A stretch of 64,000 nucleotides of DNA from Cryobacterium sp. Y50 (GTDB taxonomy: Bacteria; Actinomycetota; Actinomycetes; Actinomycetales; Microbacteriaceae). This document shows positions 9,914-49,861 of the stretch, piece after piece. Under the pieces are notes generated by a model, which saw only the letters and a program-made list of their open reading frames with translations, had not been told where the DNA came from and ran no database searches. Position numbers and translations under genes: made by a program. The stretch covers positions 1 to 64,000 of the forward strand of contig NZ_PJJM01000088.1 in the NCBI RefSeq assembly GCF_002929805.1, in the 5' to 3' direction. Position 1 is the first letter of the stretch, and the number at the start of each line of letters is the position of its first letter.

Positions 9914-10663
9914 GTGACAGAAACAGCTGGTAATCGCATTCTGGTGCTGGGCAAGATTCGCCAGATCATGGATTGCTTCACCGTGGAGGAACCCACCCTG
10001 TCGCTCACCGCGATTCGCAAGCGCGCCGGACTACCCGAAAGCACCACGCAGCGTCTCGTGCAGAACCTGGTGTCGGAAGGATTTCTCGACCGTGACGGCA
10101 GCGGATACCGCATCGGACTGGCCGTGGCCCGCTGGGCCATCAATGCTACTCACGGCCTCGACGTGATTCAAGCCTCCCGCCCGGTTCTGCAAACCCTCCG
10201 CGAGCAGACGCAGGAGTCGTCGGTGCTCTACGTGCGATGGCGGCAGTACCGAACCGTGGTGGCCACGGCCCGCTCGCCGCGCGCCATCTCGCGCGTGCTC
10301 GAGGTGGGCACAGTCATGCCGCTGCACCTGGGCTCGGCCGGCAAGGTGTTTCTCGCTTTCGACGAGTTCGCTCGGCAGGAGCTGCTAACCGTTGCGCCGG
10401 AGGAGGCACTGCCCGCCCAGCTGCTGGATCAGATTCGCAACCAGGGCTGGGCGTCATCGTTTGAGGAGCGCGAGCCCGAAGTTGCCTCGGTGAGCTCCCC
10501 CGTATTCGACCACCATGGCAACGTGGTGGCTGTGGTGGGCATCGTGGCCCCGTTCTCTAGGCTCAACGAGGCGACCGCGATTCCAGGGTATACGGAGCCG
10601 GTCGTGGACGCCGCGGCGCTGATCTCGGAGGCGCTCGGGTTTGAGAGACTAGAACAATCATGA
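9914..10663 (+). CDS. IclR-family transcriptional regulator
   Basis: The 249-residue product has an N-terminal winged helix (LSLTAIRKRAGLPESTTQRLVQNLVSEGFLDRDG, residues about 28-62) and an IclR effector domain (LREQTQESSVLYVRW, MPLHLGSAGKVFLAF, VSSPVFDHHGNVVAVVGIV). The start is GTG 9914, with AAGGA upstream. It is divergent from the importer operon and most likely controls it through the palindrome at 9786-9814, with the imported acid or its CoA derivative as effector. Its stop overlaps the yccF start (ATGA). Confidence 0.9.
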   Translation: MTETAGNRILVLGKIRQIMDCFTVEEPTLSLTAIRKRAGLPESTTQRLVQNLVSEGFLDRDGSGYRIGLAVARWAINATHGLDVIQASRPVLQTLREQTQESSVLYVRWRQYRTVVATARSPRAISRVLEVGTVMPLHLGSAGKVFLAFDEFARQELLTVAPEEALPAQLLDQIRNQGWASSFEEREPEVASVSSPVFDHHGNVVAVVGIVAPFSRLNEATAIPGYTEPVVDAAALISEALGFERLEQS

Positions 10664-11034
10664 AAACCCTCCTCAACATCATCTGGCTCGTATTCTCGGG
10701 CTTCTGGCTGTTCCTCGGCTACATGTTCGCCGCGCTCATCATGTGCGTACTCATCGTCACGATCCCTTGGGGAATCGCAGCAGCACGCATCGGCGTCTAC
10801 GCGCTCTGGCCGTTCGGCAAAACCGTGATTGAGACACCGAACGCCGGCATTGCGTCGTTGCTCGGCAACGTCGTCTGGGTCGTTCTGGCCGGCTGGTGGA
10901 TCGCCCTCGAGCACCTGCTCTCGGGCATCGCGCTTTGCATCACCATCATCGGCATCCCCTTCGGAATCGCCAACTTCAAACTGATCCCGGTCGCGCTCAT
11001 GCCGCTCGGCAAGCAGATCGTCGACACGCCCTAA
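10660..11034 (+). CDS. YccF-domain inner-membrane protein
   Basis: The 124-residue membrane protein consists of two repeats of the YccF (DUF307) domain, each containing a hydrophobic hairpin and the IPWGIA / GIPFGIANFKLIPVALMPLGK type motif. YccF proteins are widespread; their function is not established. The ATG overlaps the iclR stop, so it is co-translated with the regulator, which may be positional rather than functional. A 30-base remnant of a second copy lies at 4427. Confidence 0.85.
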   Translation: MKTLLNIIWLVFSGFWLFLGYMFAALIMCVLIVTIPWGIAAARIGVYALWPFGKTVIETPNAGIASLLGNVVWVVLAGWWIALEHLLSGIALCITIIGIPFGIANFKLIPVALMPLGKQIVDTP

Positions 11035-13576: not shown

Positions 13577-13909
13577 ATGGCTGAAAAACGAATGACACCG
13601 ATTCCTGTTCGGCGAGCCATCCGCGAACTCGGAAACGACACTCAAACCTGGCGCAAGCTTTTGGGATTGACTATGGAGCAAGTCGCAGACCGCGCCGACA
13701 TAAGCCGCAGTACCCTCGCAAAATTGGAGTCCGGTAACGGCGGCGTCCGCCTCGAGACCGCGCTGCGCGTCTTCCGAGCCCTCGGAATTATGGACACGGT
13801 CGTCAACAGTGCCGACCCGTACCGCAGCGATGTGGGCCGGCTCCGATCCGAAGAGATTCTGCCGCAGCGCGTGCGTCAGAGCACGCCGAAGCGCGTGTCG
13901 GATGCCTGA
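13577..13909 (+). CDS. HipB-like Xre-family antitoxin
   Basis: The 110-residue Xre-type DNA-binding protein has its helix-turn-helix at residues about 25-65 (WRKLLGLTMEQVADRADISRSTLAKLESGNGGVRLETALRVFRALGI). AGAGGG lies nine bases before ATG 13577. The gene overlaps hipA by eight bases, the standard hipBA arrangement, so it should encode the antitoxin and autorepressor. The AT-rich stretch at 13500-13565 with repeated AATGAGTAG/AATGTGTAG-like units (about 13507 and 13538) may be its operator. Confidence 0.85.
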   Translation: MAEKRMTPIPVRRAIRELGNDTQTWRKLLGLTMEQVADRADISRSTLAKLESGNGGVRLETALRVFRALGIMDTVVNSADPYRSDVGRLRSEEILPQRVRQSTPKRVSDA

Positions 13910-15127
13910 CGCCGAAGTCTGGGTGCAGCTGGGCGGCATAGATGTGCGCGCCGGAACCGTCTACTCACACCGTCGGCGTGGCTCCGTGAGCGCTACGTTT
14001 ACGTACGCGCCTGAGTATCTGGCGCGGCCAGCCTCCTACGCTCTCGACCCAGCCCTTCCACTGTCGTCTGGCGCGTTCAATACAGCAGATGGGCATCACC
14101 TGTTCGGCGCGTTCACCGACTGCGCCCCTGACCGGTGGGGGCGCAGACTCCTCGAACGGTCTGAACGCCGTCGAGCTTCCCGAATTGGTGTTACCGAGCG
14201 CAGCTCTGGCGAACTTGACTTCACCCTCGGAGTCAGGGATGACCTACGCCAAGGAGCCATTCGGTTTCGCACGCCTGGCTCCGATGAATGGCAGGCCGAA
14301 GCGGCCGGAAGTGTGCCGCACCTCGTTGACCTGTCGCGGCTCCTTCGTGCCGTCGAATCGGTGGAGAGCGAAAACCCTGATGACGACGCCCTGCGCTTGC
14401 TGCTGGGAGCCGGAAGCTCGATCGGAGGTGCACGCCCGAAGGCGGCCGTGGTAAACGGCCAGGGTGATCTATTGATGGCAAAATTCCCGCGTGTGAGCAG
14501 TGACGAATGGGATGTCATGGCTTGGGAGCACCTATCCCTCACCCTCGCCTCCCGCGCCGGCATCAGCACTCCCCGCAACGAGTTGATGTCCGTGGCCGGT
14601 CGAAATGTCCTTCTCCTCAATCGGTTCGATCGGCAGGGCTCGCGCCGAATCGGGTACGCGAGTGCCATGACCATGCTCGAAGCGGTCGACGGTGAGCGGC
14701 GCAGCTATCTGGAAATCGCCGAGATCATCGAGCAGACATCGCCGTCGGCCACGAATGAGCTCAATGAGCTCTGGCGGCGAATTGCATTTTCCGTCCTTAT
14801 TTCCAATACCGACGACCATCTCCGTAATCATGGTTTTCTGCGCTCAGACTCCGAAGGCAGTTGGAATCTGTCGCCAGTTTTTGACCTCAATCCCAATCCG
14901 GCACCGGGACCCAAAACTTGTCGACAGCCATCGACTTCGACACCTACGCCGCCAACACCGACACACTTCTTGAAGTGGCTCCCTATTTTCGTGTGCGCAG
15001 CCCCAAGACCGTGCTCGCAGAAATAGCCCATGCGGTCTCGGGATGGGTAGCCGAAGCACGCCGTCTGGGCATCACCGAGGGCGAGATTGACCTGATGTCC
15101 GGAGCTTTTGCACCGGGAAGCCGATAG
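13902..15127 (+). pseudogene. HipA-family Ser/Thr kinase toxin, frameshifted near the C-terminus
   Basis: The frame from ATG 13902 holds the HipA N-terminal subdomain, the ATP-site lysine (LLMAKFPRV), LLLNRFDR, the catalytic loop SNTDDHLRNHGF and the metal site SPVFDLNPNP. It then runs into unrelated residues and stops at 15026 (374 residues). The expected end, STAIDFDTYAANTDTLLEV through the stop at 15127, is found in another frame from about 14918. Adding one base in the AAAA run at 14913-14916 joins them as GPKN-LSTAID. All catalytic motifs precede the break, so a truncated kinase could still be made. Either real decay or a homopolymer sequencing error is possible. Confidence 0.8.
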
Positions 15128-15753: not shown

Positions 15754-18540
15754 TCAGCGGTTGCGGCGGTACGGGGTGAATGGTTTGCGGTACCCGCCGG
15801 CCGGCTTCACAACCGGCATCGACGGGCTGCCATCGAGGGCGAGCGTGGTCTTGCAGCGCGGGTAACGCCGACAGCCGAGAAAAGCTCCGCGTTTGCTGGT
15901 GCGCTCGACCATGAACCCGAGGCCGCAGCGCGGGCAGACGATCGAGTGCAGCACCTCGCCGATGGCGTTCGTGCGCAACATGGCCTGGTCGCGGATGAGT
16001 TCCATCACGAAGCGCGATTCGCGATTGTTGATGGTGACCAGAAGCACGCCGCGGCGAGCTCGAGTGAGCGCCACGTAGAACAGACGACGCTCTTCGGCTT
16101 TCGGAAATTTTTCAGCGGCCGGCATAGCGAGCCGCAATACCGGGTCGTTGGGAATGGTGCTCGGAAATCCCCATTTTCCCGACACCATGCCGGGTATCAC
16201 GATGTAGTCGGCCTCTCCTCCTTTCGACGCGTGGATCGTCATGAACGAGATGTCGAGCAGGTCAGCGAGGGTCTTGCAGCCCTCCAAGTAACTGCTCTGG
16301 TAGCGATACCGGCCGAGTACGAGCACCGATAGCTTGCGCCCCTGGACGCTCGGGATCTCGCCACTCGCCACGCGGGTATGCAGAGTCGTCAATCGATGGC
16401 GTACGGCTGCTGCCACGGCATTGTCCGTGTCGACCGTCATGATCTCCATCGTTGGCGCATACTCGGCGGTCGACGAAACGACGCTCTTCGTGATCTGCCC
16501 AGGGTTCTGCATGACGAAGGCGCTCGAGACATCCGCTATTGATTGTGGAAAACGAAAGGTGCGCTCGAGACGCATGGTCTCACTCGAGCCGAACCGGTTC
16601 TCGAAACCGGTCATGACTGAGACATCAGCGCCGGCGAAGCGGTTGATACTCTGCCAGTCGTCGCCGACCGCGAACAGATGGCGTCCGGGTGCGTCAACGA
16701 GCGCACGAGCCAGGCGGGCACGGGCAAAGCTGGCGTCCTGAAATTCGTCGACCATTACGAGGTCATATGGGCTTTCCCAGTCACCATCTTCAAGGTGCTG
16801 CGCCGACAGCGTCAGCATGTCCTCGAAGTCGATGCAGTCGTCAGCCGCCAGCTGCTCATTCCATTCCCGACGGATGGCCGTGAACAGTCTCAGGAACGAC
16901 GCGTCCCGGTAGCGCACGGGGCCGTGGGCGAGCGCTGCGAGGTTCTCGCTCAGCTGCTCTTCGGTGAGGCAGTTGCTTTTGGCGTGGATGAGGAAGGTGC
17001 GAAATGTGCCCAGCAGGAGTGCGTTCTCGATCGGCTTCTGGCCGACGGCGAGCCGATCGGCGTTGGGCTGCAGGGAGATGCCCCGTTCGGTGAGCTCGAC
17101 GCCCAGGCGGGTAAGGTCTCGTCCACCCCACAGCTCAGACGTCGTGGTCTCGAGCAGAGTAGTGCCGTTTTTGTGGTGGATTTTGCGCTTCCATGCAACG
17201 CCCTCGAGATAGCCTTCGAAGGGCGACGAGCCATCCGCATCAATCGCCCAATGCTCGTGGTAAACGTTGATCGCCGGGTAGAAGAAATCAGGGTGGTATT
17301 GCCCGTGCGTGGGGTCAGCGGTCTCAACTTCATAGCGCTTCTCGTAAATGTAGTCGACGCCATTGAAGAACAGCCAGTCAGCGATCATCCGCTCGCCAGC
17401 GCTCTTGACGGTTTCGCCGCGCGACGTCTGAAACCCCTCGCTCGCGTCGGCCTTCTCCCCGTTATCGTCAGGGTAGTCACGGGCCAGCACCGCGCGAAAA
17501 AAGTCCCACTCCGAGCGGAACATGACATCAGTAGCCCGAAGTCGGTCAACGATCCGACCGAGTTGCTCGATGTCCTTGCCACCCTCAAGCCACGGCGCCA
17601 GCGACGGCTTCTTGCCGGTGGCCTGACCGATGATGTCGAGGCCGAAGGCGTGAAACGTGCGGGCAACGACCTTGTCTGCGTCAAGCCCCAGCGGGGTGAG
17701 GCGGTCGCGAGTGCGCTGCTGCAGCTGTTTGGCTGCAGCCGAGTTGAAGGCGAGCATGAGTATTTTGTCGGCCGGAATGAGCTTGCGATGCAACGCGTAG
17801 CCGGCTTTGGCGACCATCGTGGACGTCTTGCCGGAGCCTGCGGATGCGATGACGAGCATGCGGTTGTCGAAACAGATCACGGCGCGCGTCTGCTCTGGGG
17901 TCAGCGGCGCGGATTCCACATTGTCGAAGAATTCGCGGCACTCATCCGATTCTCGCTCGAGATGGTTTTGGTTTTCACGTGCAATTACAGCCTGCAGGTC
18001 TTTCGACCAGTGGGCAATCATATCGGCGATGTCAGCCGGCTGGGCACCAATATGAGTTTGCAAGGCTTCGTCGTCGAGGAGGTGACTGAAGCCCACGACG
18101 GCCTTACGAGCGGCCCAATCCGTGCCGAATTCGGTTGTGATCCAGCCTTTGACCTGTAGGTGTTCGGTGAGCGCGTCAGTAAAGCTATTCAACCAGAGCG
18201 TCGCCTGGCGGGCTGCCGCATCGAACTCCGCAGTGAGCTGCAGCAGCTGCAACGACTGACGCGACACGGTGAAAGCGTGTTTAAAGGCAGCAGCGTCTTT
18301 CGAGCGGATGCCGCGGAACCGGCTCGCCCGCGCTCCCACTTGCAGCTCGATCCGACTCCAGAACAGGCCGCGGGTGACGATCACCGTCGCGACATCCTCG
18401 ACCGCGGTCGAGGCAGCAGTACCTTCTATGGTGACCGTGACGATGTCGTCGTGGAGGGCAAGTTGCCAATCGCCCGCGTTGGTGAGGGCCTTGCCCCACG
18501 CGGAGGGCCGCCACGTGGGGAGGACGTGTCTGGTCTTCAA
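15754..18540 (-). CDS. UvrD/Rep-family helicase of the helicase IV type with nuclease-like insert and zinc finger
   Basis: The 928-residue SF1A helicase has a helicase-IV-like N-terminal domain at residues 1-110. Walker A ASAGSGKT lies near 233, MVDEFQDAS (motif II) near 597, GDDWQSINRFAGAD near 630, TIHASKGGEAD near 767 and YVALTRARRG near 820. A PD-(D/E)xK-like insert lies around 400-435 (YEKRYEVE, QYHPDFFYP, EHWAIDADG). At the C-terminus is a topoisomerase-type zinc finger CPRCG...CRRYPRC (about 870-895). No ATG fits: an in-frame stop lies 12 codons upstream, so TTG 18540 is the likely start. It may act in repair of DNA ends; the location in a defence-like region is suggestive only. Confidence 0.85.
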   Translation of the reverse strand: MKTRHVLPTWRPSAWGKALTNAGDWQLALHDDIVTVTIEGTAASTAVEDVATVIVTRGLFWSRIELQVGARASRFRGIRSKDAAAFKHAFTVSRQSLQLLQLTAEFDAAARQATLWLNSFTDALTEHLQVKGWITTEFGTDWAARKAVVGFSHLLDDEALQTHIGAQPADIADMIAHWSKDLQAVIARENQNHLERESDECREFFDNVESAPLTPEQTRAVICFDNRMLVIASAGSGKTSTMVAKAGYALHRKLIPADKILMLAFNSAAAKQLQQRTRDRLTPLGLDADKVVARTFHAFGLDIIGQATGKKPSLAPWLEGGKDIEQLGRIVDRLRATDVMFRSEWDFFRAVLARDYPDDNGEKADASEGFQTSRGETVKSAGERMIADWLFFNGVDYIYEKRYEVETADPTHGQYHPDFFYPAINVYHEHWAIDADGSSPFEGYLEGVAWKRKIHHKNGTTLLETTTSELWGGRDLTRLGVELTERGISLQPNADRLAVGQKPIENALLLGTFRTFLIHAKSNCLTEEQLSENLAALAHGPVRYRDASFLRLFTAIRREWNEQLAADDCIDFEDMLTLSAQHLEDGDWESPYDLVMVDEFQDASFARARLARALVDAPGRHLFAVGDDWQSINRFAGADVSVMTGFENRFGSSETMRLERTFRFPQSIADVSSAFVMQNPGQITKSVVSSTAEYAPTMEIMTVDTDNAVAAAVRHRLTTLHTRVASGEIPSVQGRKLSVLVLGRYRYQSSYLEGCKTLADLLDISFMTIHASKGGEADYIVIPGMVSGKWGFPSTIPNDPVLRLAMPAAEKFPKAEERRLFYVALTRARRGVLLVTINNRESRFVMELIRDQAMLRTNAIGEVLHSIVCPRCGLGFMVERTSKRGAFLGCRRYPRCKTTLALDGSPSMPVVKPAGGYRKPFTPYRRNR

Positions 18541-18858: not shown

Positions 18859-21756
18859 CTAGGACTCTAAAGCGCGAGCCGCGAAGTACTCATAAAGACT
18901 CGACTCAATAGGAATCGCCAGCCCCAACGTCATTGACACCACATCGTGGCCACCGACGCCCGACATCTTTGTCTGACGGGCGTCCTGAGATGTCGCTTGT
19001 CCGAGATAGTAGAAATCGGTTCCTTCTGCGTCATCCTTCTTTGCGAAAACATGAAGGGGAAGACTGTTTTCAACAATCGCTTTCACCTCACCGCTTGCAA
19101 GGGTGCGCCTACTTCGGGTGAACCAGGTCAACGTCGAAGGGTTGAGAAACTCGTCTCCATAGTTGGTGCTTTCGGACACCTCAGACCCCTTGTGGTACGT
19201 GACAAATATTGGGCAGGTGTTTGAGACAAAATCGACCTTGTAGCCGTATATCGTGCTTTGTTCGTTGGACTTCCAATTCAGCAGACGGCAAGCGTCCTTG
19301 CGGGAATAGCGTTGGCCCACCTCCAGACGTCCGGTCCAATTGTGTCGATGGCGCGCGAGGTATAGCCCGGTCTCTACAACGTCGTTAACGTGCTCTTGGA
19401 ACACCAGATCAGCGTTCCAAACCGCGGCGAACTTTTCGCTGAGGTCGTACACGCCATCACTTACAGTGATGACCGGTGCGGCGCCGTACTTTTCGGCTTC
19501 TGCCGCGGTAAAGAATTCCAAACTCAAGATGCCCAGTACGGAGGCAAGTGTTGCCGGATCGGTTGCCAGAGCACTTTTCTCAAGCAGTCGCGTGAAGGCT
19601 TGCACCTCTAGACCGTCCGCGCTGGACAAAAGCTCCTTGAGCAGCAGTAGCTCATGAGGCCGCTTACCATTCAGTAATTCGCCGGAAAGAAAGGTCAAAA
19701 CTCCGTCTGCGTACTCTCCGACCGGAACGTTCATGGCACCGACCTTTTGGAGAAACCGCCAATAATTCTTTGCTTTTGTTGCAATGACGGTGGGATCCAC
19801 TAAGTCGAAACGCGCAAAGTCGATTAGTAAAGGCACTCGGCCTAGGCGGTTCTGCACCTCGAGGAAGGACTTCTTAAGGTTCGACATGCTGTCGAGAGTC
19901 GTCGTTGCAAGGGATGCAAAAATTCGCTCTCTTGCAATAGCGTCAAAGTTGACGCTGGAAAGGCCGGCTATGGCACCGGCCTCTTGTGCGTCGATGATTT
20001 TCTTGCGGATCGAATCCTTGTTCAGGCTGCTGTCTCCGAAGAGTGCTATGGGAATCAGATAGTTATTTTCATAGTTGCCGATGAAGTCGATAACTACTAG
20101 GTGATCTTTGCCCGCGGCCTTCCGAAGTCCCCGTCCGAGCTGCTGGGTAAACACGATACTTGATTGTGTCTGACGCAGCATAACGACCTGATTGACTGAG
20201 GGAATGTCGATCCCCTCATTGAAAATGTCGACAGTGGCTATGTAGTCAAGCTCGCCGCGCTCGAGCATCTGCACGACCGCCTCTCGTTCGTCCACCGAGT
20301 CGGACCCGCTCAGCGCGCGCGTTCGGAGATGCTTTCCATGAACCTCGCGCAAGTTGAGAAGTGCCGAAAGGGCCATCGCCTCATCGTTCCTGCTACAGAA
20401 GATTAGGCCGCGTACCGGTGCGCCCGCGTGTCCATACTTTTCGATCGAGGCCACGAGGTAGTCAATGCGTTCAGAGGCGACAAGGTGCTTGAGGTCCGAG
20501 AGCTTGTCTATTACCTCGCCGTCTTTGACGTAGTCGGTTACGCCGTAGTAGTGAAAGGGTGCCAGCATGTCTGCCTCTAGGGCCTTTTGCAATCGGATTT
20601 CGTATGGCACATTGAAATCGAACAGCTCAAAGACGTTGAAATCGTCGGTTCGCTCGGGCGTCGCTGTCATTCCGAGCAAAAATTCTGGCTGGAGGTGTTC
20701 GATCACACTCCGATAGCTCTCGGCGCCCGCCCGGTGGACCTCGTCGATCAGAACGTAGTCAAATGCATCGGGCTCAATCCCAGCGAGATTCGCCGGCCTC
20801 GATAGGGATTGAATCGTAGCGAACACATAACGACGATCGAGTTCCCTTTTCGTTCCCACAAATTTGCCAAAGTCGCTGTCCGGAGCTCCCAAGACGCGCT
20901 TGAATTCAAATATGGCACGGTCCAAGATCTGCTCACGATGCACCACGAACAACATCCGTTTCGGTGCGCATGCCCGCACGTCGAGCGCCGAGAGGATCGT
21001 CTTTCCAGTTCCCGTCGCAGAAATAACAACCGCGCGTTTCTCCCCATTATCACGCAGTGCTGCAATCTCAGCGAGTGCTTCGACTTGCATTTCGTTGGGC
21101 TGAATGACTCCGCTGACTGGCAGATCAGTCACCGGCTCAATCGGGCCGATTGCAGCTGACGATGCGCGTATGGGTGCGATCCACGTCAGCGCGTACGCGT
21201 CAATCCAGTCTTTGGTAAGGGGAATCGAGGCATCAATATGAACCTGCGCGGCGCGATTAAGCTGCTGGACGATGTCCCCGTTAGGCAGAGCCGAAAAGCG
21301 CAGATTCCACTCGTGGTTGTTCAGGAGTGCGCGATCCGTCAGGTTCGAGCTACCTACGATCGCCGTGGTACTCGCCTCCTGCTCAAAAATGTATCCCTTG
21401 GCATGAAAGCCGGCAGAGGAATCTGGGTGCACGAAAACGTTGATTCCATCGAGATTGACGAGTTCCCGAAAGGCTGCAGGCGAGTTGAATCCTAAGTACG
21501 TGGATGTAATGATCGTGCCCGAACCTCGAAAATCGATAATTGCCTGCTTGAGCAGGGCTATCGCGCTTGGTGTGACGAAAGCCACACTAAAGATAAAGCG
21601 ACGCGAGCGCTTTAGCTCTTCACGAATCGCTCGAAGCATCGTGTTGCCGGCCGAATTTGAGACGAGCGTCGGGTTAAAGACTTGATCGGCCTTTACTTGC
21701 GAGTTAAGAAATCCAAAGTTGTTGTCGATGGTCAGTTGACGGCTAGTCGCGCTCAC
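18859..21756 (-). CDS. PLD-nuclease/SF2-helicase/DUF3427 protein
   Basis: The 965-residue multidomain protein starts with a phospholipase-D-type nuclease domain (FHAKGYIFEQ with HxK near residue 122, then GSSNLTDRAL). The SF2 helicase core follows: TGTGKT near 245, LIDEVHRA near 335, GMTATPERTD near 360, DIFNEGIDIP near 508 and QQLGRGLRKAAGK near 540. A DUF3427-type C-terminal region completes it. GTG 21756 overlaps the NUDIX stop (GTGA), so the two are made together. The domain set points to recognition and cutting of DNA. Such helicases are frequently found in defence islands, but I cannot tie this one to a named, tested system. Base composition is lower in GC than in neighbours (long AT-richer stretches), hinting at transfer. 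Confidence 0.85.
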   Translation of the reverse strand: MSATSRQLTIDNNFGFLNSQVKADQVFNPTLVSNSAGNTMLRAIREELKRSRRFIFSVAFVTPSAIALLKQAIIDFRGSGTIITSTYLGFNSPAAFRELVNLDGINVFVHPDSSAGFHAKGYIFEQEASTTAIVGSSNLTDRALLNNHEWNLRFSALPNGDIVQQLNRAAQVHIDASIPLTKDWIDAYALTWIAPIRASSAAIGPIEPVTDLPVSGVIQPNEMQVEALAEIAALRDNGEKRAVVISATGTGKTILSALDVRACAPKRMLFVVHREQILDRAIFEFKRVLGAPDSDFGKFVGTKRELDRRYVFATIQSLSRPANLAGIEPDAFDYVLIDEVHRAGAESYRSVIEHLQPEFLLGMTATPERTDDFNVFELFDFNVPYEIRLQKALEADMLAPFHYYGVTDYVKDGEVIDKLSDLKHLVASERIDYLVASIEKYGHAGAPVRGLIFCSRNDEAMALSALLNLREVHGKHLRTRALSGSDSVDEREAVVQMLERGELDYIATVDIFNEGIDIPSVNQVVMLRQTQSSIVFTQQLGRGLRKAAGKDHLVVIDFIGNYENNYLIPIALFGDSSLNKDSIRKKIIDAQEAGAIAGLSSVNFDAIARERIFASLATTTLDSMSNLKKSFLEVQNRLGRVPLLIDFARFDLVDPTVIATKAKNYWRFLQKVGAMNVPVGEYADGVLTFLSGELLNGKRPHELLLLKELLSSADGLEVQAFTRLLEKSALATDPATLASVLGILSLEFFTAAEAEKYGAAPVITVSDGVYDLSEKFAAVWNADLVFQEHVNDVVETGLYLARHRHNWTGRLEVGQRYSRKDACRLLNWKSNEQSTIYGYKVDFVSNTCPIFVTYHKGSEVSESTNYGDEFLNPSTLTWFTRSRRTLASGEVKAIVENSLPLHVFAKKDDAEGTDFYYLGQATSQDARQTKMSGVGGHDVVSMTLGLAIPIESSLYEYFAARALES

Positions 21757-22236: not shown

Positions 22237-22971
22237 TCAAAGACCGCCGATGACTCCGAGGACCAACTTGTTGTAAAGAGGCAAGCCCACGAACACCCCG
22301 AGTGTCGCAGCTAACGCGAAACTGAGCAGGGTCCATGAGACTCGCCGCACGCGCGCTGTCTTTACATGGCTGTCGATTACAGCGAATTTCGCCATCAGAC
22401 TCGGAGTCGGTAGCGATGTGAGTGCAGTCCAAGTCGCTGACGCGTCAACTATCGCTGCAAGCTCAACCAGATCGCCTTCGACGAGAGAAACTGGTTGTTT
22501 TAGAAGCCAACGGCGCAAACCGACCGCATCCATCACAGTGACGATGGCGGGCCTCTTCTTGATCGTGATCGGCCCGGGGCTGACCAGCGCGATCACGGCC
22601 TGCGCTGCCGGGAGCTGAGGCATCCGCTCTCGCAGCATTTTGGTGACGCGGGTGGCTTCAAATATGGAGTTGCGAAGGTAGGGCTGTTTCTGTCCATTGA
22701 CCATAATCGTCCGCTCGGCGACCCAGATCTTTTTGCCGCGGTGATGTTTGGTGTTGATGGTGCAAATTCCGCCGGGGCCCACTACGAGGTGGTCGATGGC
22801 GGCGCCGGCTTTGCCGATCGGGAGGGCGTGGAAGACTCGCCACTCGGGCGGGAGCCGGCGGAGAATCCTGCCAACCTTGATCTCGCCCTGGGCACCGCGG
22901 TACCAGGCGAGGCTGTCGGCGGCCAGCGGGGAGATTCCCCAGAACCGGGCGAAACGTGTGCGCGCTGGCAC
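22237..22971 (-). CDS. NERD-domain protein with C-terminal membrane anchor
   Basis: The 244-residue protein has a NERD (nuclease-related) domain: GAQGEIKVGRIL, AAIDHLVVGPGGICTINTKHH (PD-(D/E)xK-like Asp and Lys) and MVNGQ. Two hydrophobic C-terminal helices follow (WTLLSFALAATLGVFVGLPL, LVLGVIGGL). Its GTG start abuts a Phd-antitoxin remnant with no obvious ribosome site, so the true start is uncertain. NERD proteins are thought to act on DNA; a precise role is unknown. A piece of a second copy lies at 29540-29626 in the same orientation. Confidence 0.75.
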   Translation of the reverse strand: MPARTRFARFWGISPLAADSLAWYRGAQGEIKVGRILRRLPPEWRVFHALPIGKAGAAIDHLVVGPGGICTINTKHHRGKKIWVAERTIMVNGQKQPYLRNSIFEATRVTKMLRERMPQLPAAQAVIALVSPGPITIKKRPAIVTVMDAVGLRRWLLKQPVSLVEGDLVELAAIVDASATWTALTSLPTPSLMAKFAVIDSHVKTARVRRVSWTLLSFALAATLGVFVGLPLYNKLVLGVIGGL

Positions 22972-23057
22972 CGACAGGTGATGACCACGCCGTCATGGGT
23001 CGCCTCGACGCTGTCGACAAGAGTGGAGAGTTTGTCCTTCGCTTCACTCACTGCCAT
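22972..23057 (-). pseudogene. N-terminal remnant of a Phd/YefM-like antitoxin
   Basis: The minus strand from ATG 23057 encodes MAVSEAKDKLSTLVDSVEAT then HDGVVITC, the start of a Phd/YefM antitoxin (vSeArnkL.eLvd.v..th..v.IT). It then merges into the NERD gene. Only about 28 of about 80-90 codons remain and no toxin follows. The junction falls at the NERD start codon. Confidence 0.6.
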
Positions 23058-23412
23058 GGTTTGCAGGGGACGATTCTAGCCTGACCGCGAATGTAGCCGG
23101 GTGAGCATCGTCTATCGAAGCAGCTTCTCGCGATCCGTTTCGCCGCGGTCGAAGATACTGCTGTCGCGATCGAGCACTGCCGAAAGGGCCGCCAGGCTGG
23201 CTCCGGCGTTACTCCGCTCGAATTTATCGTCCCGTTCCAAGGAAGGGCCAACGCCCGCGCCGGGATTTCGCTGCTGGAGCTGCGCAGGTGCAGTGCCGCC
23301 AGCAGGTGTGGGCCGTCCAGGTGGGAGAGCGTATAGACTTCTGCGGTCCCAAACGAGCCTCCGTCGACGCGTAGTCTGACTTTATACACGGCCGTGGTCA
23401 CAGGGGGAAGTA
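23058..23412. other. Intergenic region before the DUF6361 operon
   Basis: No gene can be supported. Short open frames on both strands lack recognisable motifs and ribosome sites. The promoter of the operon at 23413 should lie in the right part; GGGGGAAG at about 23403-23410 is its ribosome site. Confidence 0.4.
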
Positions 23413-24615
23413 ATGCCATCACTCGTTGCATGGCTCGATGCATCGAGCGAAGACCAGCGTCGCATGCGGGAAATCGTCAACCTCTTCAGCGAGCGCGATA
23501 GCCGCGACGAGCTCGGGTTCGGTCAGGTTCGAGACGCACTAAGCGATTCCCTCTTTCCTGGCACGTCGACGCTGCTCACCCGTGCCCGCTACATGCTCCT
23601 CATACCCTGGTGCTTCACTGCGGCACAGTCGACCGGTCGGTCCGCGGATGACATCAGCGTTGCCGTCACCGCCAACGAGCGCGACTTGATCTTGGCGCTC
23701 AGGACGGGCGGCGACGAGCAGGGGCTGCTCGGAAGGGTGGCTGGCGCGAATCTCAAGACTCTGCCGTCTAGCGTGTACTGGGCGGCGCTTCGCAAGTACG
23801 GCATTCTCAGCTCGCCGTCGATGGACCGCCAAGACGCGATCGCCTTTGATTCGGCGAGCTCGGTGAGCGACGGGGAGATCGACAACGACCGGATCGGCGC
23901 CTGGTCTCCGACCCTTCCCGTAGCGCCGAAGGGATTCCCGTCTGAATCAGCGGGCAATTTCGATCTGTCGCCGTCAGAGGCGAACTGGCTGCGCGACCGC
24001 ATGGCCGAAGGCAGCGAAGGAACGCTTCTTGGCCATCTGGTGGAATATCGACCCGAGGCTGCGAGCATCACCCCCTGGGACGATCCAACTTCACGTGAAG
24101 TGACCGGTGCCCCGCAACAGGTCTTGCAACACGCCAAGCTGTTTTCGTTCGCAGCGCACGGCGCGGCCCTGCTCTACAACCTGATGCTGGCCGAACAGTA
24201 CGAATGCGCCGGGTACAACCAGATCGTTGCGCCGGTGGACCGATACAGCGACAAGCTCAGGGAATGGCAGCAGGAACGTGATCTCCTTGCCGATGAACTG
24301 AGCTCGTGGGACCGAACCGACTTCTGGACCAACATCGACGCGGGAAGCGGCTCGGTGGCGCCGCGATCACGAATGTTCGTCAATGACTGGTTGGATGCGT
24401 CGCTCGTCCTGGACACTCACGACCTCTCCGGTGGTCGAGACATGATTCGGTCCCGCGAGCGCCAGCACAAAGGCGCCCAGTCACGGCTCACCAATCACAA
24501 GCTTCTGCAGTCCTGGCAAGGGGCATCCGGAGCGGGCCGATTAGCGTTTCGCTGGCCCCAGGTAAATCGGATTCTCACCGACCTGCACGACGGATTGGAA
24601 CGAACGGATGCTTGA
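23413..24615 (+). CDS. DUF6361-family protein, first gene of a PLD-helicase operon
   Basis: The 400-residue protein fits the DUF6361 family by its start (SLVAWLDASSEDQRRMREIV...DSRDELGFGQVRDALSDSLFPGTSTLLTRARY) and by its neighbours. It has no recognised catalytic motif. The N-terminal part resembles a DNA-association module (the TRARYMLLIPW stretch) and the rest is alpha-helical. It overlaps the PLD gene by eight bases and belongs to a three-gene operon with a PLD protein and a large SF2 helicase. The operon layout suggests a dedicated complex, most likely in defence against foreign DNA. That role is inference. Confidence 0.75.
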   Translation: MPSLVAWLDASSEDQRRMREIVNLFSERDSRDELGFGQVRDALSDSLFPGTSTLLTRARYMLLIPWCFTAAQSTGRSADDISVAVTANERDLILALRTGGDEQGLLGRVAGANLKTLPSSVYWAALRKYGILSSPSMDRQDAIAFDSASSVSDGEIDNDRIGAWSPTLPVAPKGFPSESAGNFDLSPSEANWLRDRMAEGSEGTLLGHLVEYRPEAASITPWDDPTSREVTGAPQQVLQHAKLFSFAAHGAALLYNLMLAEQYECAGYNQIVAPVDRYSDKLREWQQERDLLADELSSWDRTDFWTNIDAGSGSVAPRSRMFVNDWLDASLVLDTHDLSGGRDMIRSRERQHKGAQSRLTNHKLLQSWQGASGAGRLAFRWPQVNRILTDLHDGLERTDA

Positions 24616-26363
24616 ACCCGACGCGCGCGCCGCCCTCACTGAGCAGCTCCGCCCACCCGCCGGGTATGAGCTGCTCCACGCTGTCGGTACCACGTTCACG
24701 CTCGACCTCACCAGTGCTCTGGCCAGCCCCCTGTCGTTTGCGGCGCACCGTGTGCGCGAGAGCGACGATCCCATTGCAATTCTCGACGCGGTGCGGCGAG
24801 CCGCCGATCGGGTAGATATCTTTGCCCAGGCCGGCCAGATCGTCGCCCCCCGACAGGCCTCTGATCTAGTCGCCTTCCTCGAGCCGATGCTGCATCCGGT
24901 CACCGCACGGTGCCCCGGTGGGCTCTTCCACCCGAAAGTGTGGATTCTTGAGTATGGCCGCGGCAGCGACCGCGCGTACCGGCTGCTGTGCTCGAGTAGA
25001 AACCTCACCGCTGACCGCAGCTGGGACATGGTCGTGCGCCTCGCACGGTACCCCCACCAACGTAGATCAGCCGGCGAGTGCCCCGGCACGCGACTTCCTT
25101 ACCGCGCTCCCCCGGCTTGCTGTCACTCCCTTGACTGAAAACCGAACGCTCCACATAGCGGACTTAGCGCACCGCGTCAGCCGCGTGCGCTGGGAGGCCC
25201 CTGGTGACGTGCGCGAGGTCGTGCTGCATGCCCTGGGCATCGGGCGCCCGACGACGGCAGACTTCGACGGTAAGCGCCACCTGATTGTTTCGCCGTTCCT
25301 GTCCGATGACGGCATCGCCCGGCTCGCCCCCGCCAGATCGACCAAGGTGCACGTCGTCTCCCGAGCAGAAAGCCTGGACCGACTCCGGCCGGAGACGCTG
25401 AAGCGGATCGTCCCCTATGTGCTCGACGACGCGGCCCGCGACACGGCAGAGGTCGACGGTGACCCACTCGAAGGCCTGCACGCCAAGACGTTCGTTCTCG
25501 ACAGACGCGACGGGTCCCACGTCTTTATCGGGTCCGCGAATGCGACCAACGCTGCTTTCACGCAGAACGTCGAGTTCATGATCGAGTTGATCGGCCCCCT
25601 GCCCCGCATCGGCGTCGAGGCCGTCTTCGGCGAGAAATCGGCTCTGTTCCAACTGGTCGTGCCGTATCCGGCCACCGGCGGCGTAGAGCACAGCGACGAC
25701 GACAAGGCTGATCATGCGTTGGAGTCGGCGATCCGGTCTCTCGCCACCTCGCGCCTGCGCAATACTGTGGTCGCATGCGACGAGTCGAACTTCGACATCC
25801 TCGTCGAGTCGCTCGATTCGACGCACCCACCGGCCGATCTCCAAATTTACGTACGTTTGCTGACGAGGCCGGGGAATTCGCATCCACTCCCGGTGGTCAC
25901 TGGCGAGAGCGTACGGTTCGAGGCCATGCCGCTTACCGACGTGACCCCGTTTCTTGTGATTCGAGTCGTCGACACCCGCGGCGAAGAGCGCAGCACCGTC
26001 GTGCGGGTCGAGCTCGTCGGCGATCTCCCTGGGCGGCGGGACGCCGTGCTCGCGCGGCAGATCGACACTCCGGAGAAGTTCCTTCGCTTCTTGATGCTGC
26101 TGCTCGCCCAGGACAGCGATGATGGGGCGCTTTTCACTGCGGGTGGCGGGGGTAGTTTCGGTGACTGGGGCGCCGACGGTGTCGGTCTCTTCGAGGCGCT
26201 GGTGCGCTCGGTGGGCGCTCGCAACTCCGGACTTGACGACCTCGGTCATCTGATCGAGCGCCTCCAAGCGGATGCCGCGGCGACCGTTCTTCCCGCGGGT
26301 TTCGACGAACTCTGGGCTTCTGTCTGGTCGGCACATCTCACTTTGCAGGGCGCCCGGCTGTGA
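24608..26363 (+). pseudogene. Phospholipase-D-like protein interrupted by a frameshift
   Basis: The frame from ATG 24608 reads a PLD protein with a first HKD-like motif (LFHPKVWILEY, then LLCSSRNLTADRSWD) and stops at 25138 after about 145 good residues. The remainder (DFLTALPRLAV through LHAKTFVLDRRDGSHVFIGS, NATNAAF and on to stop 26363) continues in another frame. Removing one base at about 25043-25055, where there is a CCCCC run, restores a protein of about 585 residues. Both halves keep PLD residues, so the gene was functional recently. It overlaps DUF6361 upstream and the helicase downstream (GTGA). Real decay and sequencing error cannot be told apart here. Confidence 0.8.
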
Positions 26364-29300
26364 CTGTGTTCAATGCTGAGGCTGTGCTCAGCGAGCTCAA
26401 AGGATTTCAGCGCGACGCCGTCGACCACGTCATTCATCGGTTCTATGGTTCTGCCGATGCGAGCCGCCGATTTCTCGTCGCCGACGAGACGGGGCTTGGT
26501 AAGAGCGTGGTGGCTCGCGGTGTGATTGCGCGAACCATCGAACAGCTACAACACGATGACACCGTCGACCGGATTGACGTGGTCTATATCTGTTCGAATA
26601 CTGACCTGGCACAGCAGAATCTTCAGCGGCTCAACGTGACCGGCAACCCGCATCTCGCGTTCACCAGTCGGCTGACGCTGCTGGCTTTGGAGTCCCGACG
26701 TCTCGGCGGTACCGCGATCGACGGCAAGGTTGTGAATCTGGTGTCGTTCACTCCGGGAACGTCCTTCAACAACTCAAGTTGGCGCACCGGGTCGAAGGAA
26801 GAGCGTGCCCTGCTGCATGTGATTCTGAACGATGAGCTGCAGCACAATCTCGCTCAGAGTCACGCCTCACGGCTCTTCTTTCAAGGCACGGTGCGCACGG
26901 AGAAATCGTTCTCATACTGCGTGGAGTGGATCCGACGAGTGCTCGACGGCCCGGTTCACGAGCCGATCCTCACTGCGTTTCGCAGTAACGCGTCCAGCCT
27001 CGGCTTGCTAGCTCGGTACCAGCGCATCGTCGACGACATCGTGCAGAACGGGCTGCCGACGGAGATGAACGTCATCAAGGAAATCACCGCTGAGCTACGG
27101 GGGGCTCTTGCGCGTGCCAGTGTTGAGACACTGGAGCCCGACCTCGTCATTCTTGATGAGTTTCAGCGCTTCAGCCACTTGCTCGATCCGGAGACGGGAG
27201 GCGACGCCGCCGAGCTTGCGCATCACCTTTTTGACTACGGCCAAGCCAAGGTCCTGTTGTTGTCGGCGACGCCGTATAAGGCGTACACAGCCCCAACAGA
27301 TGACTCCGACGACGACCACTACACCGATTTCATTGCCGTCCTGAGCTTTCTCGCGGGAGGAGCGACGGCGGATCTGTCCGAGGTGAAACGGCTCTTCGAA
27401 GAATATCGTGCCGGCATTGCGGCAGGCGCGTTGGTGGCGGACATCGCGGCATCCCTGCGCATTCGCCTACTGCGCTGGATGAGTCGTACCGAACGTCCGC
27501 AGCTCGGCGCTGACGGAATGCTGCGGGAGCGCCACATTACCTCGGCGTTGCCGTCGCCGGCGAACCTCATCGGCTTCGCCGGGCTGCAGCGTCTGGCCCA
27601 GGAGCTCGACGCGCCGATCTCCGTTGAGTATTGGAAGTCGATCCCCTATTTCGGCAACTTCATGGAGAACTACCAGGTCTCCAGGGCGCTCGACAAACGA
27701 CTCGAGGACGCGGAATCTGCACAAGCGATCGAGCCCTATTTGGCGGGTTTGGATACGCTCGATGCCGAGGCATTGTGCTCTTACGAGCCCGTCCGGATTG
27801 GGTACGGACACATAGGTAGCCTCGCTGAGGACATGCTCGAGTCCGGGCTGTGGAAGCTGCTGTGGCTGCCTCCGTCGATGCCGTACTTTGAGCCGGGCGG
27901 GCCCTTCGCAGAGCGTGGTGTCGTGTCGGCCACAAAACGGCTCGTGTTCTCGACGTGGACTGCGACACCTACAGCGATTGCGAGTTTGCTCAGCTACGAA
28001 GCGGAACGACTGACAGCGTTCGGTTCGACCCGCCTGACCCGAAACACGGCCGAGGCACGCAAGAATCTGGCGTCCCGTCTCAACTGGGCGACCGTGGATG
28101 GGAGGGCCAACGCCATGTCGACGCTGGCACTTTTTTGGCCCCACCCCGCGCTCGCACTGCAGGCCGACCCGCTGGATGTCGCTCGTCGCCATGCCGGGAT
28201 GCCGGTGCGAGTGCCAGCGCTTGCTGCGGAAGCTGATGTGCAGGCCTCCTTTGACGGCGAGGCGGTCGCTGGTCAGGCTTGGCAGGCGTATTTCAGCACG
28301 CCTGGCATGGTGCCGACCGGCCTGACTGCTGCTCGCGTGACGTCCGCCATGGAGAGTCGCGGAGCTGAGCTGCCTGACGATGAATCACAAACGAGCGCAG
28401 GCCTACGCATCCACGTCGATGCAGCGTTCGATGCCGGTCAGGCCGGAGATGACGTGTCGCACGAGCATTTGGCGCGACTCGCGCTTCATTCCCCGGGCAA
28501 CATCGCCTATCGGGCGCTGTCCAGGCTCCGGACCATAGCGGATGCCACCACCGACGCAGGATTGTGGAGTGCTGCAGCGCTGCTGTCGAACGGACTCCGA
28601 AGTCTGTTCAACCGACTGGAGACCACGCTGCTGCTCGATCAGCTCTACTCGACCGGGGAGGCCTACTGGCTCGTCGTGCTCCGGTATTGCGCGGACGGCA
28701 ACCTGCAGGCATCCATGGATGAGTACCTATTCCAGCTGCGCAGCGAAACCGGGGGCACTGCCCTCACCGACGAAGTACTCCTCCAGCTCGCCGGGCGCGC
28801 TTACGACGCAGTTACATTGCGGCCGTCTACCTACCGCGCTCGAGATCTCGCGGACCCCACCACCAGTATCCCCTTCACAGCCCGATTTGCCCTGCGGTAC
28901 GGAGGCAAGCAACAGGAGACCGAAAGTGCTCGCCAGCCGGAGATTCGAAACGCCTTCAACAGCCCATTCTGGCCGTTCGTGTTGGCGTCCACCAGCGTCG
29001 GCCAAGAGGGCATCGACTTTCACTGGTGGAGCCATGAAGTGCTGCACTGGAACCTGCCGTCGAACCCGGTGGACTTCGAACAACGCGAAGGCCGCGTCAA
29101 CCGCTTCGCCGGCCACGCAGTGCGCAAGAACATTGCAGCCGAGCACTGGCGGGATGTTGTTGCGTCAAGCGAGTCAAACCCCTGGAAGGTTGCATTTGAC
29201 GCCGCCCAGACGGCTCACCCCGAACTCGGGGAGTTCGCCCCGTACTGGCTCTACCCCGGTGCGTCCAAGGTGGAGCGGCAGATCATCACCTATCCCCTCA

Positions 29301-29467
29301 GCCGCGATATCGAGAAGGTCGAGCGCCTCAAGGACGCACTAACTCTGTACCGGCTCACTCTCGGACAGCCCCGCCAGCAGGACATGCTCGAGATGATGCA
29401 GCGGCGTGGGGTCAACCCGTCGCAGGTCGCGAAACTGGACTTGAGCCCTCCAGTGCGGGATCGCTGA
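26360..29467 (+). CDS. Large SF2 helicase of the DUF6361-PLD operon
   Basis: The 1035-residue protein has an SNF2-like SF2 core: ADETGLGKS (Walker A, residues about 40-48), LVILDEFQRF (motif II near 266, DEFQ rather than DEAH) and LLLSATPYK (motif III near 300). A long helical insert follows, then the second RecA fold with STSVGQEGIDFHWW and FEQREGRVNRFAGHAVRKN (motif VI near 907). GTG 26360 overlaps the PLD stop. ATP-driven movement on DNA is expected, with the PLD protein as nuclease and DUF6361 as possible targeting partner. This one is intact and in frame throughout. Confidence 0.85.
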   Translation: MTVFNAEAVLSELKGFQRDAVDHVIHRFYGSADASRRFLVADETGLGKSVVARGVIARTIEQLQHDDTVDRIDVVYICSNTDLAQQNLQRLNVTGNPHLAFTSRLTLLALESRRLGGTAIDGKVVNLVSFTPGTSFNNSSWRTGSKEERALLHVILNDELQHNLAQSHASRLFFQGTVRTEKSFSYCVEWIRRVLDGPVHEPILTAFRSNASSLGLLARYQRIVDDIVQNGLPTEMNVIKEITAELRGALARASVETLEPDLVILDEFQRFSHLLDPETGGDAAELAHHLFDYGQAKVLLLSATPYKAYTAPTDDSDDDHYTDFIAVLSFLAGGATADLSEVKRLFEEYRAGIAAGALVADIAASLRIRLLRWMSRTERPQLGADGMLRERHITSALPSPANLIGFAGLQRLAQELDAPISVEYWKSIPYFGNFMENYQVSRALDKRLEDAESAQAIEPYLAGLDTLDAEALCSYEPVRIGYGHIGSLAEDMLESGLWKLLWLPPSMPYFEPGGPFAERGVVSATKRLVFSTWTATPTAIASLLSYEAERLTAFGSTRLTRNTAEARKNLASRLNWATVDGRANAMSTLALFWPHPALALQADPLDVARRHAGMPVRVPALAAEADVQASFDGEAVAGQAWQAYFSTPGMVPTGLTAARVTSAMESRGAELPDDESQTSAGLRIHVDAAFDAGQAGDDVSHEHLARLALHSPGNIAYRALSRLRTIADATTDAGLWSAAALLSNGLRSLFNRLETTLLLDQLYSTGEAYWLVVLRYCADGNLQASMDEYLFQLRSETGGTALTDEVLLQLAGRAYDAVTLRPSTYRARDLADPTTSIPFTARFALRYGGKQQETESARQPEIRNAFNSPFWPFVLASTSVGQEGIDFHWWSHEVLHWNLPSNPVDFEQREGRVNRFAGHAVRKNIAAEHWRDVVASSESNPWKVAFDAAQTAHPELGEFAPYWLYPGASKVERQIITYPLSRDIEKVERLKDALTLYRLTLGQPRQQDMLEMMQRRGVNPSQVAKLDLSPPVRDR

Positions 29468-29626: not shown

Positions 29627-29757
29627 ATGACGCCTAGCGGCGAATGCCGTGCCGCTCGGCGCCGGAGTGTTTGTCGCCAGAAAGCGGGGCGGCTGGGAGG
29701 CTTTGCTCAGGAGCGGCTGGACACAATAGAAACCCCAGCCAAACCGAAGGGCCCCCT

Positions 29758-30585
29758 ATGAGCAATTTCCAGCGCATTCTGAGCATGGCAGCAAAAGCCC
29801 TTGAACAGAAAGGGCAGCCGTCGTCGGGCGGGTCAGGCAAGACGGATTGGCGCGAGATGGTGCGCACCGCAGCCGACAAGGTCACCGGAGACAGCAAGCC
29901 CCCGGCGAACAACGTGCAGCGCAGCGCCGCTCCCCTCTCTGGTTCGAACGTGAGCGCCCAAGACCGCGCGGCCATCGCCCGCTACGACTATCTGTTGCAG
30001 ACCGCGCAGCCCCAGCAGCTTGAGCAGGTTCACCGCGACGCCTTCGCGCGGCTCACGCCGGCGCAACGCGACGAGGTCAACGCCCAGCTGCGCGCAGAGC
30101 TGCCCTCCAACGAATATCCGGCATCGACCAGTCCGGACGACCTGGCCCGATCGGCCACCCGCGGCGAAGCCCAGAATCCCGGCTTCCTGAAGAAACTGTT
30201 CGCCAAACCGTCCGGCCGAGGAGCCGCCAGCGCACTTGCCGGAGCGGGTGTCGCCGCTGCCGGGATCGGTGCTGTCGGGATCGGTGCCGGCGGACTACTT
30301 GCCGCCGTCGCCGGTGGCGCGGTGCTCAGCACTGTGGCCGGGCCCCTCCTGGAACAGGCTGCGGGACTGGGCGTCGATTTTGAGAGCCTCGCCGGCGGTC
30401 TCGAAGGAATCACCCAGGGCGTCGATGTCGAAAACCTCGCCGGCGGTCTCGAGGGAGTCACCCAGGGCTTCACCGACGGCGCGGGCGAGTACGCGACCGG
30501 ACTGGGCGAGCAGGTGTCTGATTTGGGATCGAACTTTGAGATCCCCGGCCTCTCGGCACTCGGCAACTTGTTTGGCCGCGACTAG
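29758..30585 (+). CDS. Hypothetical alanine/glycine-rich protein with internal repeat
   Basis: The 275-residue protein is not recognised by family. Residues 1-130 are charged and helical (MSNFQRILSMAAKALEQKG; ARYDYLLQTAQPQQLEQVHRDAFARLTPAQRDEV). A Gly/Ala-rich hydrophobic stretch (ASALAGAGVAAAGIGAVGIGAGGLLAAVAGG) could insert into a membrane. Two tandem copies of an about 14-residue unit follow (FESLAGGLEGITQGVD / VENLAGGLEGVTQGFT). AAGGG lies before ATG 29758. No function is proposed. Confidence 0.65.
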   Translation: MSNFQRILSMAAKALEQKGQPSSGGSGKTDWREMVRTAADKVTGDSKPPANNVQRSAAPLSGSNVSAQDRAAIARYDYLLQTAQPQQLEQVHRDAFARLTPAQRDEVNAQLRAELPSNEYPASTSPDDLARSATRGEAQNPGFLKKLFAKPSGRGAASALAGAGVAAAGIGAVGIGAGGLLAAVAGGAVLSTVAGPLLEQAAGLGVDFESLAGGLEGITQGVDVENLAGGLEGVTQGFTDGAGEYATGLGEQVSDLGSNFEIPGLSALGNLFGRD

Positions 30586-30681
30586 ACAATACCGACGAAG
30601 GCGGCTTCGCTAGCAGCCGGCCGGGACTCGGCCGGGGTCTGTGTCGCCATCGGCACGATGGCACTCGCGCTACGCTAACGT

Positions 30682-31305
30682 GTGCAACTTTCCCTCTGGC
30701 TGGCCCTCGTGGGCGCCGGCGTGCTAATCAGCTTCACCCCCGGCGCCGGTGCGATCAACACCATGAACAACTCGCTCACCAGCGGATTTCGCCGTTCGAT
30801 CTGGGGAATTTTCGGGCAGCAGGCTGCACTAATCGTGCACATCATCGTGGTGGCACTCGGCGTCGGGGTACTCGTCTCCGGCTCACCCATACTCTTCAAC
30901 GTCATCCGCTACGCCGGAGCCGCCTACCTGGTGTTTCTGGGCATCCGTTTAATTCTGCAAAAACCCGACCCGTCTCGCGATACAACCGTGACGTTGACCC
31001 GGGAGCCAGCCTGGTCAATGTTTCGCCGCGGCCTATGGGTCAACCTGCTCAACCCCAAGGCTCTCGTGTTCTTTCTCGCGTTCATGCCGCAGTTCATCCA
31101 GCCGGAACAGCCGCTGCTCCCCCAATATCTCGTACTGACCGTCACCGTAGTACTGATCGACATCGTCGTGATGTGGCTGTTCTTCGCGATCGCGGCCAAA
31201 TCGTTTCAGCGCTTCACGAACACCACTCGCGGCCAGCTCATTCTCAACCGCACCTTCGGCCTGCTGTTCATAGCCGTCGCGCTGCTGCTGGCGCTGGTGC
31301 ACTGA
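30682..31305 (+). CDS. LysE/RhtB-family amino-acid exporter
   Basis: The 207-residue LysE-family translocator has about six membrane helices. It opens QLSLWLALVGAGVLISFTPGAGAINTM (the PGP-like turn FTPGAG is characteristic) and has GAAYLVFLGIRLI and FRRGLWVNLLNPKALVFFLAFMPQF. The start is GTG 30682 (GCTAACGTGTGCAA), a context conserved in the dead copy at 49465, which supports it. It probably exports an amino acid or related metabolite; the substrate is unknown. Confidence 0.88.
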   Translation: MQLSLWLALVGAGVLISFTPGAGAINTMNNSLTSGFRRSIWGIFGQQAALIVHIIVVALGVGVLVSGSPILFNVIRYAGAAYLVFLGIRLILQKPDPSRDTTVTLTREPAWSMFRRGLWVNLLNPKALVFFLAFMPQFIQPEQPLLPQYLVLTVTVVLIDIVVMWLFFAIAAKSFQRFTNTTRGQLILNRTFGLLFIAVALLLALVH

Positions 31306-49317: not shown

Positions 49318-49464
49318 GCTGCGGCTATCGAGTGGTGTGCGCCTGTCAGGCGTTCCCTGCTGTTTTGACAGCATCAGGTGAGGTTCCGCCCGTACCGACC
49401 TGGGCCAGAATCTTCGCTGGTGACGCAAGCGGAGGCATCCGCCGTGCGCGCGCTACGCTAACGT

Positions 49465-49861
49465 GTGCAACTTTCCCTCTGACTGGCCCTAGTGGGCGCC
49501 GGCGTGCTAATCAGCTTCACCCCCGGCGCCGGCGCGATCAACACCATGAACAACTCGCTCACCAGCGGATTTCGCCGCTCGATCTGGGGAATTTTTGGGC
49601 AGCAGGCTGCACTAATCGTGCACATCATCGTAGTGGCACTCGGCGTCGGGGTACTCGTGGCCGGCACACCCATACTCTTCAACGTCATCCGCTACGCCGG
49701 AGCCGCCTACCTGGTATTTCTGGGCATCCGCTTAATTCTGCAAAAACCCGACCCGTCTCGCGATACGACCGTGACGCTGACCCGGGAGCCAGCTCATTCT
49801 CAACCGCACCTTCGGCCTGCTATTCATATCCGTCGCCCTGCTGCTGGCGCTCGTGCACTGA
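49465..49861 (+). pseudogene. Dead duplicate of the LysE-family exporter gene
   Basis: From the sequence just before GTG 49465 (GCTACGCTAACGTGTGCAA) to the TGA at 49861, this is a near-identical copy of 30682-31305. Two lesions kill it. Codon 7, TGG in the intact gene, is TGA. In addition, 227 bases are deleted exactly between two GCCAGC hexamers (31005 and 31232 in the intact copy), which shifts the frame. The rest differs by only scattered changes, so the duplication is recent. Confidence 0.9.

Follow-up and report, generated by a model that had tools for sequence, protein, structure and literature searches.

Within the 64,000-nucleotide window analysed here—the whole stretch of DNA taken from Cryobacterium sp. 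Y50—three genes follow one another head to tail on the forward strand, in the order zacA (23413–24615), zacB (24608–26363) and zacC (26360–29467). Overlaps of 8 nt between the 3' end of zacA and the 5' end of zacB (24608–24615), and of 4 nt between the 3' end of zacB and the 5' end of zacC (26360–26363), bear out the overlapping stop and start codons described in an earlier note on this sequence. The product of zacA is a DUF6361 protein of 400 amino acids, predicted to be all-helical, for which the Pfam match reached 203.5 bits (cut-off, 25) and the PADLOC ZacA model (PDLC03828) aligned over profile positions 1–395 of 396 (3.8e-129, 429.7 bits); its structure model (pLDDT 80.5, pTM 0.80) retrieved no PDB or viral structure at E ≤ 0.001 in a structure search. 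The zacC gene encodes an SF2 helicase/translocase of 1035 amino acids, with Pfam DEAD and Helicase_C both over their cut-offs and a 1055-bit match to the PADLOC ZacC model (PDLC03830) over positions 5–1016 of 1019. Its Walker A, DEFQ, SATP and motif V/VI residues are intact in the conserved columns of 32 sequences (L015, L019, L023, L025, L029, L078 and L083 were left out of this alignment, and L030, L078 and L085 out of that of ZacA), and a long insert separates its two RecA-like halves.

Pfam and PADLOC thus uphold the DUF6361 and helicase genes of the earlier note, whereas its PLD gene is read in two frames instead of one. The 5' piece of zacB (24608–25138, forward strand) holds the start codon and the first catalytic half-site (FHPK ... 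SRN), while an open frame on the same strand at 24918–26363 holds the second half-site (LHAK ... GSANAT ... NVE) and the C-terminal region. The PADLOC ZacB model (PDLC03829) matches these pieces in complementary fashion, with profile positions 1–158 of 586 on the first (1.8e-64) and 147–582 on the second (2.6e-104). The first match stops at 25069 and the second starts at 25035; these ends, together with comparison with C. levicorallinum (L014) and C. aureum (L015), place the loss of frame at 25035–25069 (forward strand), and the 5' piece can be aligned to residue 149 of the former and residue 159 of the latter.

With homologues of ZacA, ZacB and ZacC adjacent in the order A-B-C, and with the helicase motifs of ZacC intact, the locus is, almost certainly, a member of Azaca (ZacABC); since the ZacABC models match over near full length, the gene set is not new. 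Azaca is the system that Millman and colleagues reportedly tested against phages in 2022. Citing papers credit it to Millman et al. 2022; the earlier note had named no tested system with exactly this set. PMC12278908 names ZacC as the helicase of Azaca, PMC10952713 cites Millman et al. 2022 in placing the system with the PLD-like domain, and PMC10121019 counts it among known systems. An Actinobacteria survey and a 2026 review list it among systems of unknown mechanism.

The zacB frameshift

In both C. levicorallinum and C. aureum, zacB is a single 584-codon ORF; the two genes are 94% identical to each other, and the pieces in the window are 87–93% identical to them. Comparison of the window with these two loci gave dN/dS values of 0.096–0.134 for zacA and zacC and of 0.069–0.141 for the zacB pieces (over 142 codons in the 5' piece and 400 codons in the 3' piece). 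Because zacB behaves like its neighbours in this respect, the frameshift is either a recent event or an assembly error. The loss of frame falls between the first and second half-sites, so that neither piece alone carries both; with zacB split in this way, ZacB should be inactive in the window, save in the case of an assembly error, and if the sequence is right, the window copy of Azaca is probably inactive. That the three genes are not all open here bears on activity and leaves membership of the Azaca family unaffected. As read, the finding itself is an ordinary one: a further Azaca locus, split.

That the frameshift is an assembly or sequencing error, and that the living strain has an intact, functional operon, deserves serious consideration, even if we lean against it. 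The source is a draft assembly of 105 contigs, the stretches of both zacB pieces are under purifying selection like zacA and zacC, and zacA, zacC and both gene overlaps are kept in the window. However, a very recent true mutation would give an identical picture, and broken copies occur elsewhere: on A. fabrum pTiL-11 the annotation divides zacB in two, zacA lies in pieces on a Caballeronia plasmid, and both zacB and zacC are split in locus L029. We also considered whether zacB is in general decoded by programmed frameshifting and rejected this, as the gene is one ORF in 17 of 18 three-gene relatives (L029 being the split one).

Relatives, hotspot and genomic surroundings

A scan of genome contigs with ZacA returned 20 loci and, because it was seeded with six short peptide patterns of one ZacA, is biased towards close relatives. 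The genes zacA, zacB and zacC stand in this order in 18 of the 20. All three are full-length ORFs in 15 of the 18 (zacC is short in L025, zacB and zacC are split in L029, and zacA lies near a contig edge in L030). By record title, the 18 belong to Actinomycetota, Cyanobacteria, Alphaproteobacteria, Pseudomonadales, Hydrogenedentota and Chloroflexi, with L020 labelled Planococcus; the remaining two, L032 and L033, contain ZacA fragments alone. Among 396 genomes of the phylum, a domain search found DUF6361 in 8, adjoined by ZacB in five (the window's own, G200, G314, G096 and G169); one of the others ends at a contig edge and two are N-terminal fragments. Of 37 genomes of the genus, 2 show more of ZacB than a short PLD match, and the short matches in other Cryobacterium genomes are probably to the PLD part of the type of protein encoded at 18859–21756. 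Among plasmids, 43 records match ZacB, 16 of them over 80% or more; the 15 examined (all except H6) have ZacA, ZacB and ZacC without exception, and one zacABC plasmid is haloarchaeal. Four further loci found through ZacC are annotated as DUF6361, PLD (hypothetical in L090) and helicase. Moreover, actinobacterial loci L032, L033, L057 and L059 hold ZacA fragments, mostly N-terminal, with neither ZacB nor ZacC beside them in 3 to 20 kb of DNA, which is consistent with frequent decay of the system.

In Cryobacterium, the operon lies in a variable stretch bounded by yccF (10660–11034) on one side and by a gene plus lysE (29644–31305) on the other. Of 41 genomes, 11 (the window's among them) carry yccF and one or more of the right-hand genes on a single contig within 50 kb, at spacings of 3.5 to 47.7 kb; in the other 30, the markers are on different contigs, far apart, or one was not found. 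Nine of the ten other same-contig genomes entered the hotspot comparison. The slot occupied by zac is bordered on the left by a NERD-domain gene (22237–22971, reverse strand; Pfam NERD, 52 bits), which also borders it in genomes G029, G009 and G353, and on the right by a gene at 29644–30585 (forward strand) whose product matches no Pfam family at E ≤ 0.01. In G029, NERD adjoins the 29644-type gene, about 500 bp away and without zac, and G009 has the same helicase, type IV enzyme, MutT and NERD genes as the window but carries 2.9 kb of different DNA where zac would be. Against C. levicorallinum or C. aureum, the operon (about 23.3–29.5 kb) aligns as a single block at 93%, with the flanking matches broken up; zac is carried as one cassette.

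A 160-bp stretch just upstream of zac (23102–23261) matches L051:15349–15509, downstream of zac, at 79%, which suggests local shuffling of debris around the cassette. A lysE-type gene and a second site have a 345-bp tract in common (30666–31010 and 49449–49793) at 96% identity; in G352, the 18-kb block between the tracts (about 31.3–49.3 kb) is found on the opposite side of the first lysE, as if the two tract copies had recombined.

The 93 hotspot ORFs examined match 44 PADLOC families at E ≤ 1e-25, compared with 6 for 93 control ORFs; in this and the scan of zac neighbours described below, as in the control, the counts are of families and not of proteins hit, and related models can match one protein. 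The hotspot set covers 9 of the 11 loci (L045 and L048 were left out) and includes the zac genes of L051, while the control comprises 93 of 118 ORFs of at least 150 amino acids, taken from 15-kb stretches at 11 arbitrary places in Cryobacterium genomes, a single long ORF and everything from L069 and L070 being left out. The window itself encodes at 18859–21756, on the reverse strand, a 965-residue PLD-SF2-DUF3427 protein that PADLOC assigns to mREase_IV (773 bits, nearly whole length); Pfam finds DUF3427 (276 bits), ResIII and PLDc_2, a layout that we take to be SauUSI-like. With it, the zac island has a further PLD-plus-helicase defence protein of a different kind. A UvrD-family (helicase IV-like) protein of 928 amino acids (15754–18540, reverse strand; Pfam) carries a topoisomerase-type zinc ribbon at its C terminus and a long insertion within its helicase domain, and its DNA is conserved in the same hotspot of G009 and G018. 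An intact HipA_C protein is encoded at 13809–15026. The NERD protein and two other helicases of the earlier note are thus confirmed by Pfam, but the sole support found for its toxin-antitoxin remnants is an N-terminal Phd-like match at 22782–23057, short and below both curated cut-offs.

Beyond the window, the ORFs that neighbour zac at 16 other loci (103 of 104 of at least 200 amino acids, one long ORF having been dropped) match 113 PADLOC families, as opposed to 6 for the 93 control ORFs, all of which come from Cryobacterium genomes. This contrast, together with the near full-length ZacABC matches (ZacB in two pieces), speaks for the earlier note's reading of the operon as a defence system. 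Type I restriction subunits lead the neighbour families (best 25 of 113), and HsdR is near zac in L020 and L022. On a Haliscomenobacter plasmid (L076), zac is flanked by genes annotated as type I S and R. In MT835621 (L071), a gut scaffold filed as 'Bacteriophage sp.', zacABC directly follows an HsdR gene; with an integrase between two HsdS-like genes, this scaffold looks like a bacterial mobile element, where HsdR alone is Pfam-confirmed and HsdM, HsdS and the integrase are our own reading of the ORFs.

An AddB/AddA-like pair—a PD-(D/E)XK gene and a UvrD gene with a C-terminal PD-(D/E)XK—immediately precedes zacA in 9 of 15 plasmid loci (L074, L075 and L078–L084; alphaproteobacterial), with 14 nt between them in L075 (Bradyrhizobium), and also in the cyanobacterial L026:96–5655. 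The pair's first gene is found at an identity of at least 60% in 21 plasmid records, 10 of which are in the complete ZacC list of 53. We rejected the pair as a fixed part of Azaca because it also occurs without zac; it is a frequent neighbour instead. Type I restriction and the AddAB-like pair are two natural partner contexts of the system.

Predicted ZacB fold and a proposed mechanism

Structure prediction and comparison gave ZacB a Tdp1-like, two-lobed PLD fold. Tdp1 active sites are of the H-x-K...N kind, and the conserved residues of ZacB likewise form two H-x-K...N half-sites, with the Asp not conserved (the alignment was made without the window, L029 and L082, all split, and L078, which is not annotated). 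The 'two-HKD' description in the earlier note therefore holds for the two half-sites and not for a full HKD; PMC7762302 labels Tdp1 sites HKD as well.

Taking the computed family identity, conserved order, catalytic residues, predicted ZacB fold and defence context together, we consider it likely that the locus is a ZacABC cassette in a Cryobacterium defence hotspot, frameshifted in zacB, with a translocase, a composite-site phosphodiesterase and a helical coupler as its proposed parts. On balance we favour a DNA-cleaving translocase-nuclease. ZacC would be an SF2 translocase (SNF2/RapA-like) that uses ATP to engage invading DNA and to move along it or remodel it. ZacB would be a phosphodiesterase of the PLD superfamily, built like Tdp1/PLD3 as one chain with two lobes, and would cut the DNA, its half-sites H108/K110/N132 and H291/K293/N311 (L014 numbering) presumably joining as one composite active site. 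ZacA, all-helical, may act as sensor or coupler of the two; as a protein without a clear structural match, it is the likely specificity or coupling factor. The predicted fold and the ZacB and ZacC motifs support these putative activities. Gene order and overlaps conserved in relatives agree with the 'one machine' of the earlier note. We infer a three-protein complex with DNA as its substrate, a trigger for its action, roles for translocation and for ZacA, and some means of sparing host DNA. The core has no methyltransferase, and methylation-based self/non-self discrimination of its own is therefore unlikely. With named residues in a predicted Tdp1-like site, and with ZacC motifs intact, the mechanism is now testable.

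Two other modes of action were weighed. Azaca could be abortive, with ZacB attacking host nucleic acid or membrane lipid after sensing by ZacC and ZacA, so that the cell dies; we find this unlikely, though tenable. That many genomic neighbours are restriction systems acting on DNA is context and no direct evidence against it. Less probable still is an end-directed system, in which ZacC would drive the Tdp1/PLD3-type ZacB to DNA ends or protein-capped ends of invading genomes as a second stage after other systems. Such second-stage action would explain why type I restriction genes and AddAB-like pairs repeatedly adjoin zac, and why the core is without a methyltransferase. Phages with covalently protected ends would then be a preferred target or test case, and ZacB would offer an unusual means for a helicase-nuclease system to distinguish invading from own DNA.

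Comparison with known systems

ZacB is 10–16% identical to Tdp1 and PLD3-PLD4 in the rows compared and, unlike them, has an extra C-terminal region (about 363–584) and is operon-linked to a helicase. A Tdp1-like fold would also suit the repair of protein-DNA adducts, but a chromosomal DNA-repair module outside defence is very improbable given the sporadic triad (2 of 37 genomes in the genus with more of ZacB than a short PLD match, DUF6361 in 8 of 396 of the phylum), which is often plasmid-borne, in a variable slot and beside restriction genes. A new system merely resembling Azaca can be dismissed: window ZacA shares 31–36% identity with the seven relatives furthest from it in an alignment of 18, and 22–24% with ZacA of L076 and L071—so that Azaca subtypes may exist—but gene content and full-length homology, the models covering 395 of 396, 582 of 586 (two pieces) and 1012 of 1019 positions, contradict it.

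The PADLOC candidate PDC-M27 resembles Azaca locally: PDC-M27C matches ZacC over 858–919 (3.1e-17), and PDC-M27B matches 4 of 17 ZacB proteins, its best match across 296 genomes of the phylum covering 79–325 of 635 positions. SauUSI-type enzymes likewise combine PLD with an SF2 helicase, and the ZacB profile matches 7clg ('Putative helicase'), presumably SauUSI itself, over positions 290–348 (E 4e-4). Those enzymes carry PLD, helicase and DUF3427 in one chain, whereas the PLD and helicase of zac are separate genes, without a DUF3427 match and with ZacA in addition.

DISARM shares the pairing of a PLD nuclease with an SF2 helicase, and short cross-matches link ZacB to DrmC and ZacC to DrmD and DrmA. 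It has, however, DrmB and a methyltransferase, neither of which was matched in the operon, as the earlier note had stated: the Drm matches listed there are short and include no DrmB, and Pfam found no methyltransferase domain in the nine ORFs scanned between 15754 and 29467 (two fused restriction-methyltransferase models weakly match the protein at 18859–21756, over its helicase part). The DISARM-like logic seen by the earlier note thus amounts to a resemblance. ZacA matches no Drm model, ZacB is, unlike its DISARM counterpart, a full two-lobed PLD protein, and all three proteins match best to the Zac models, ZacA, ZacB and ZacC.
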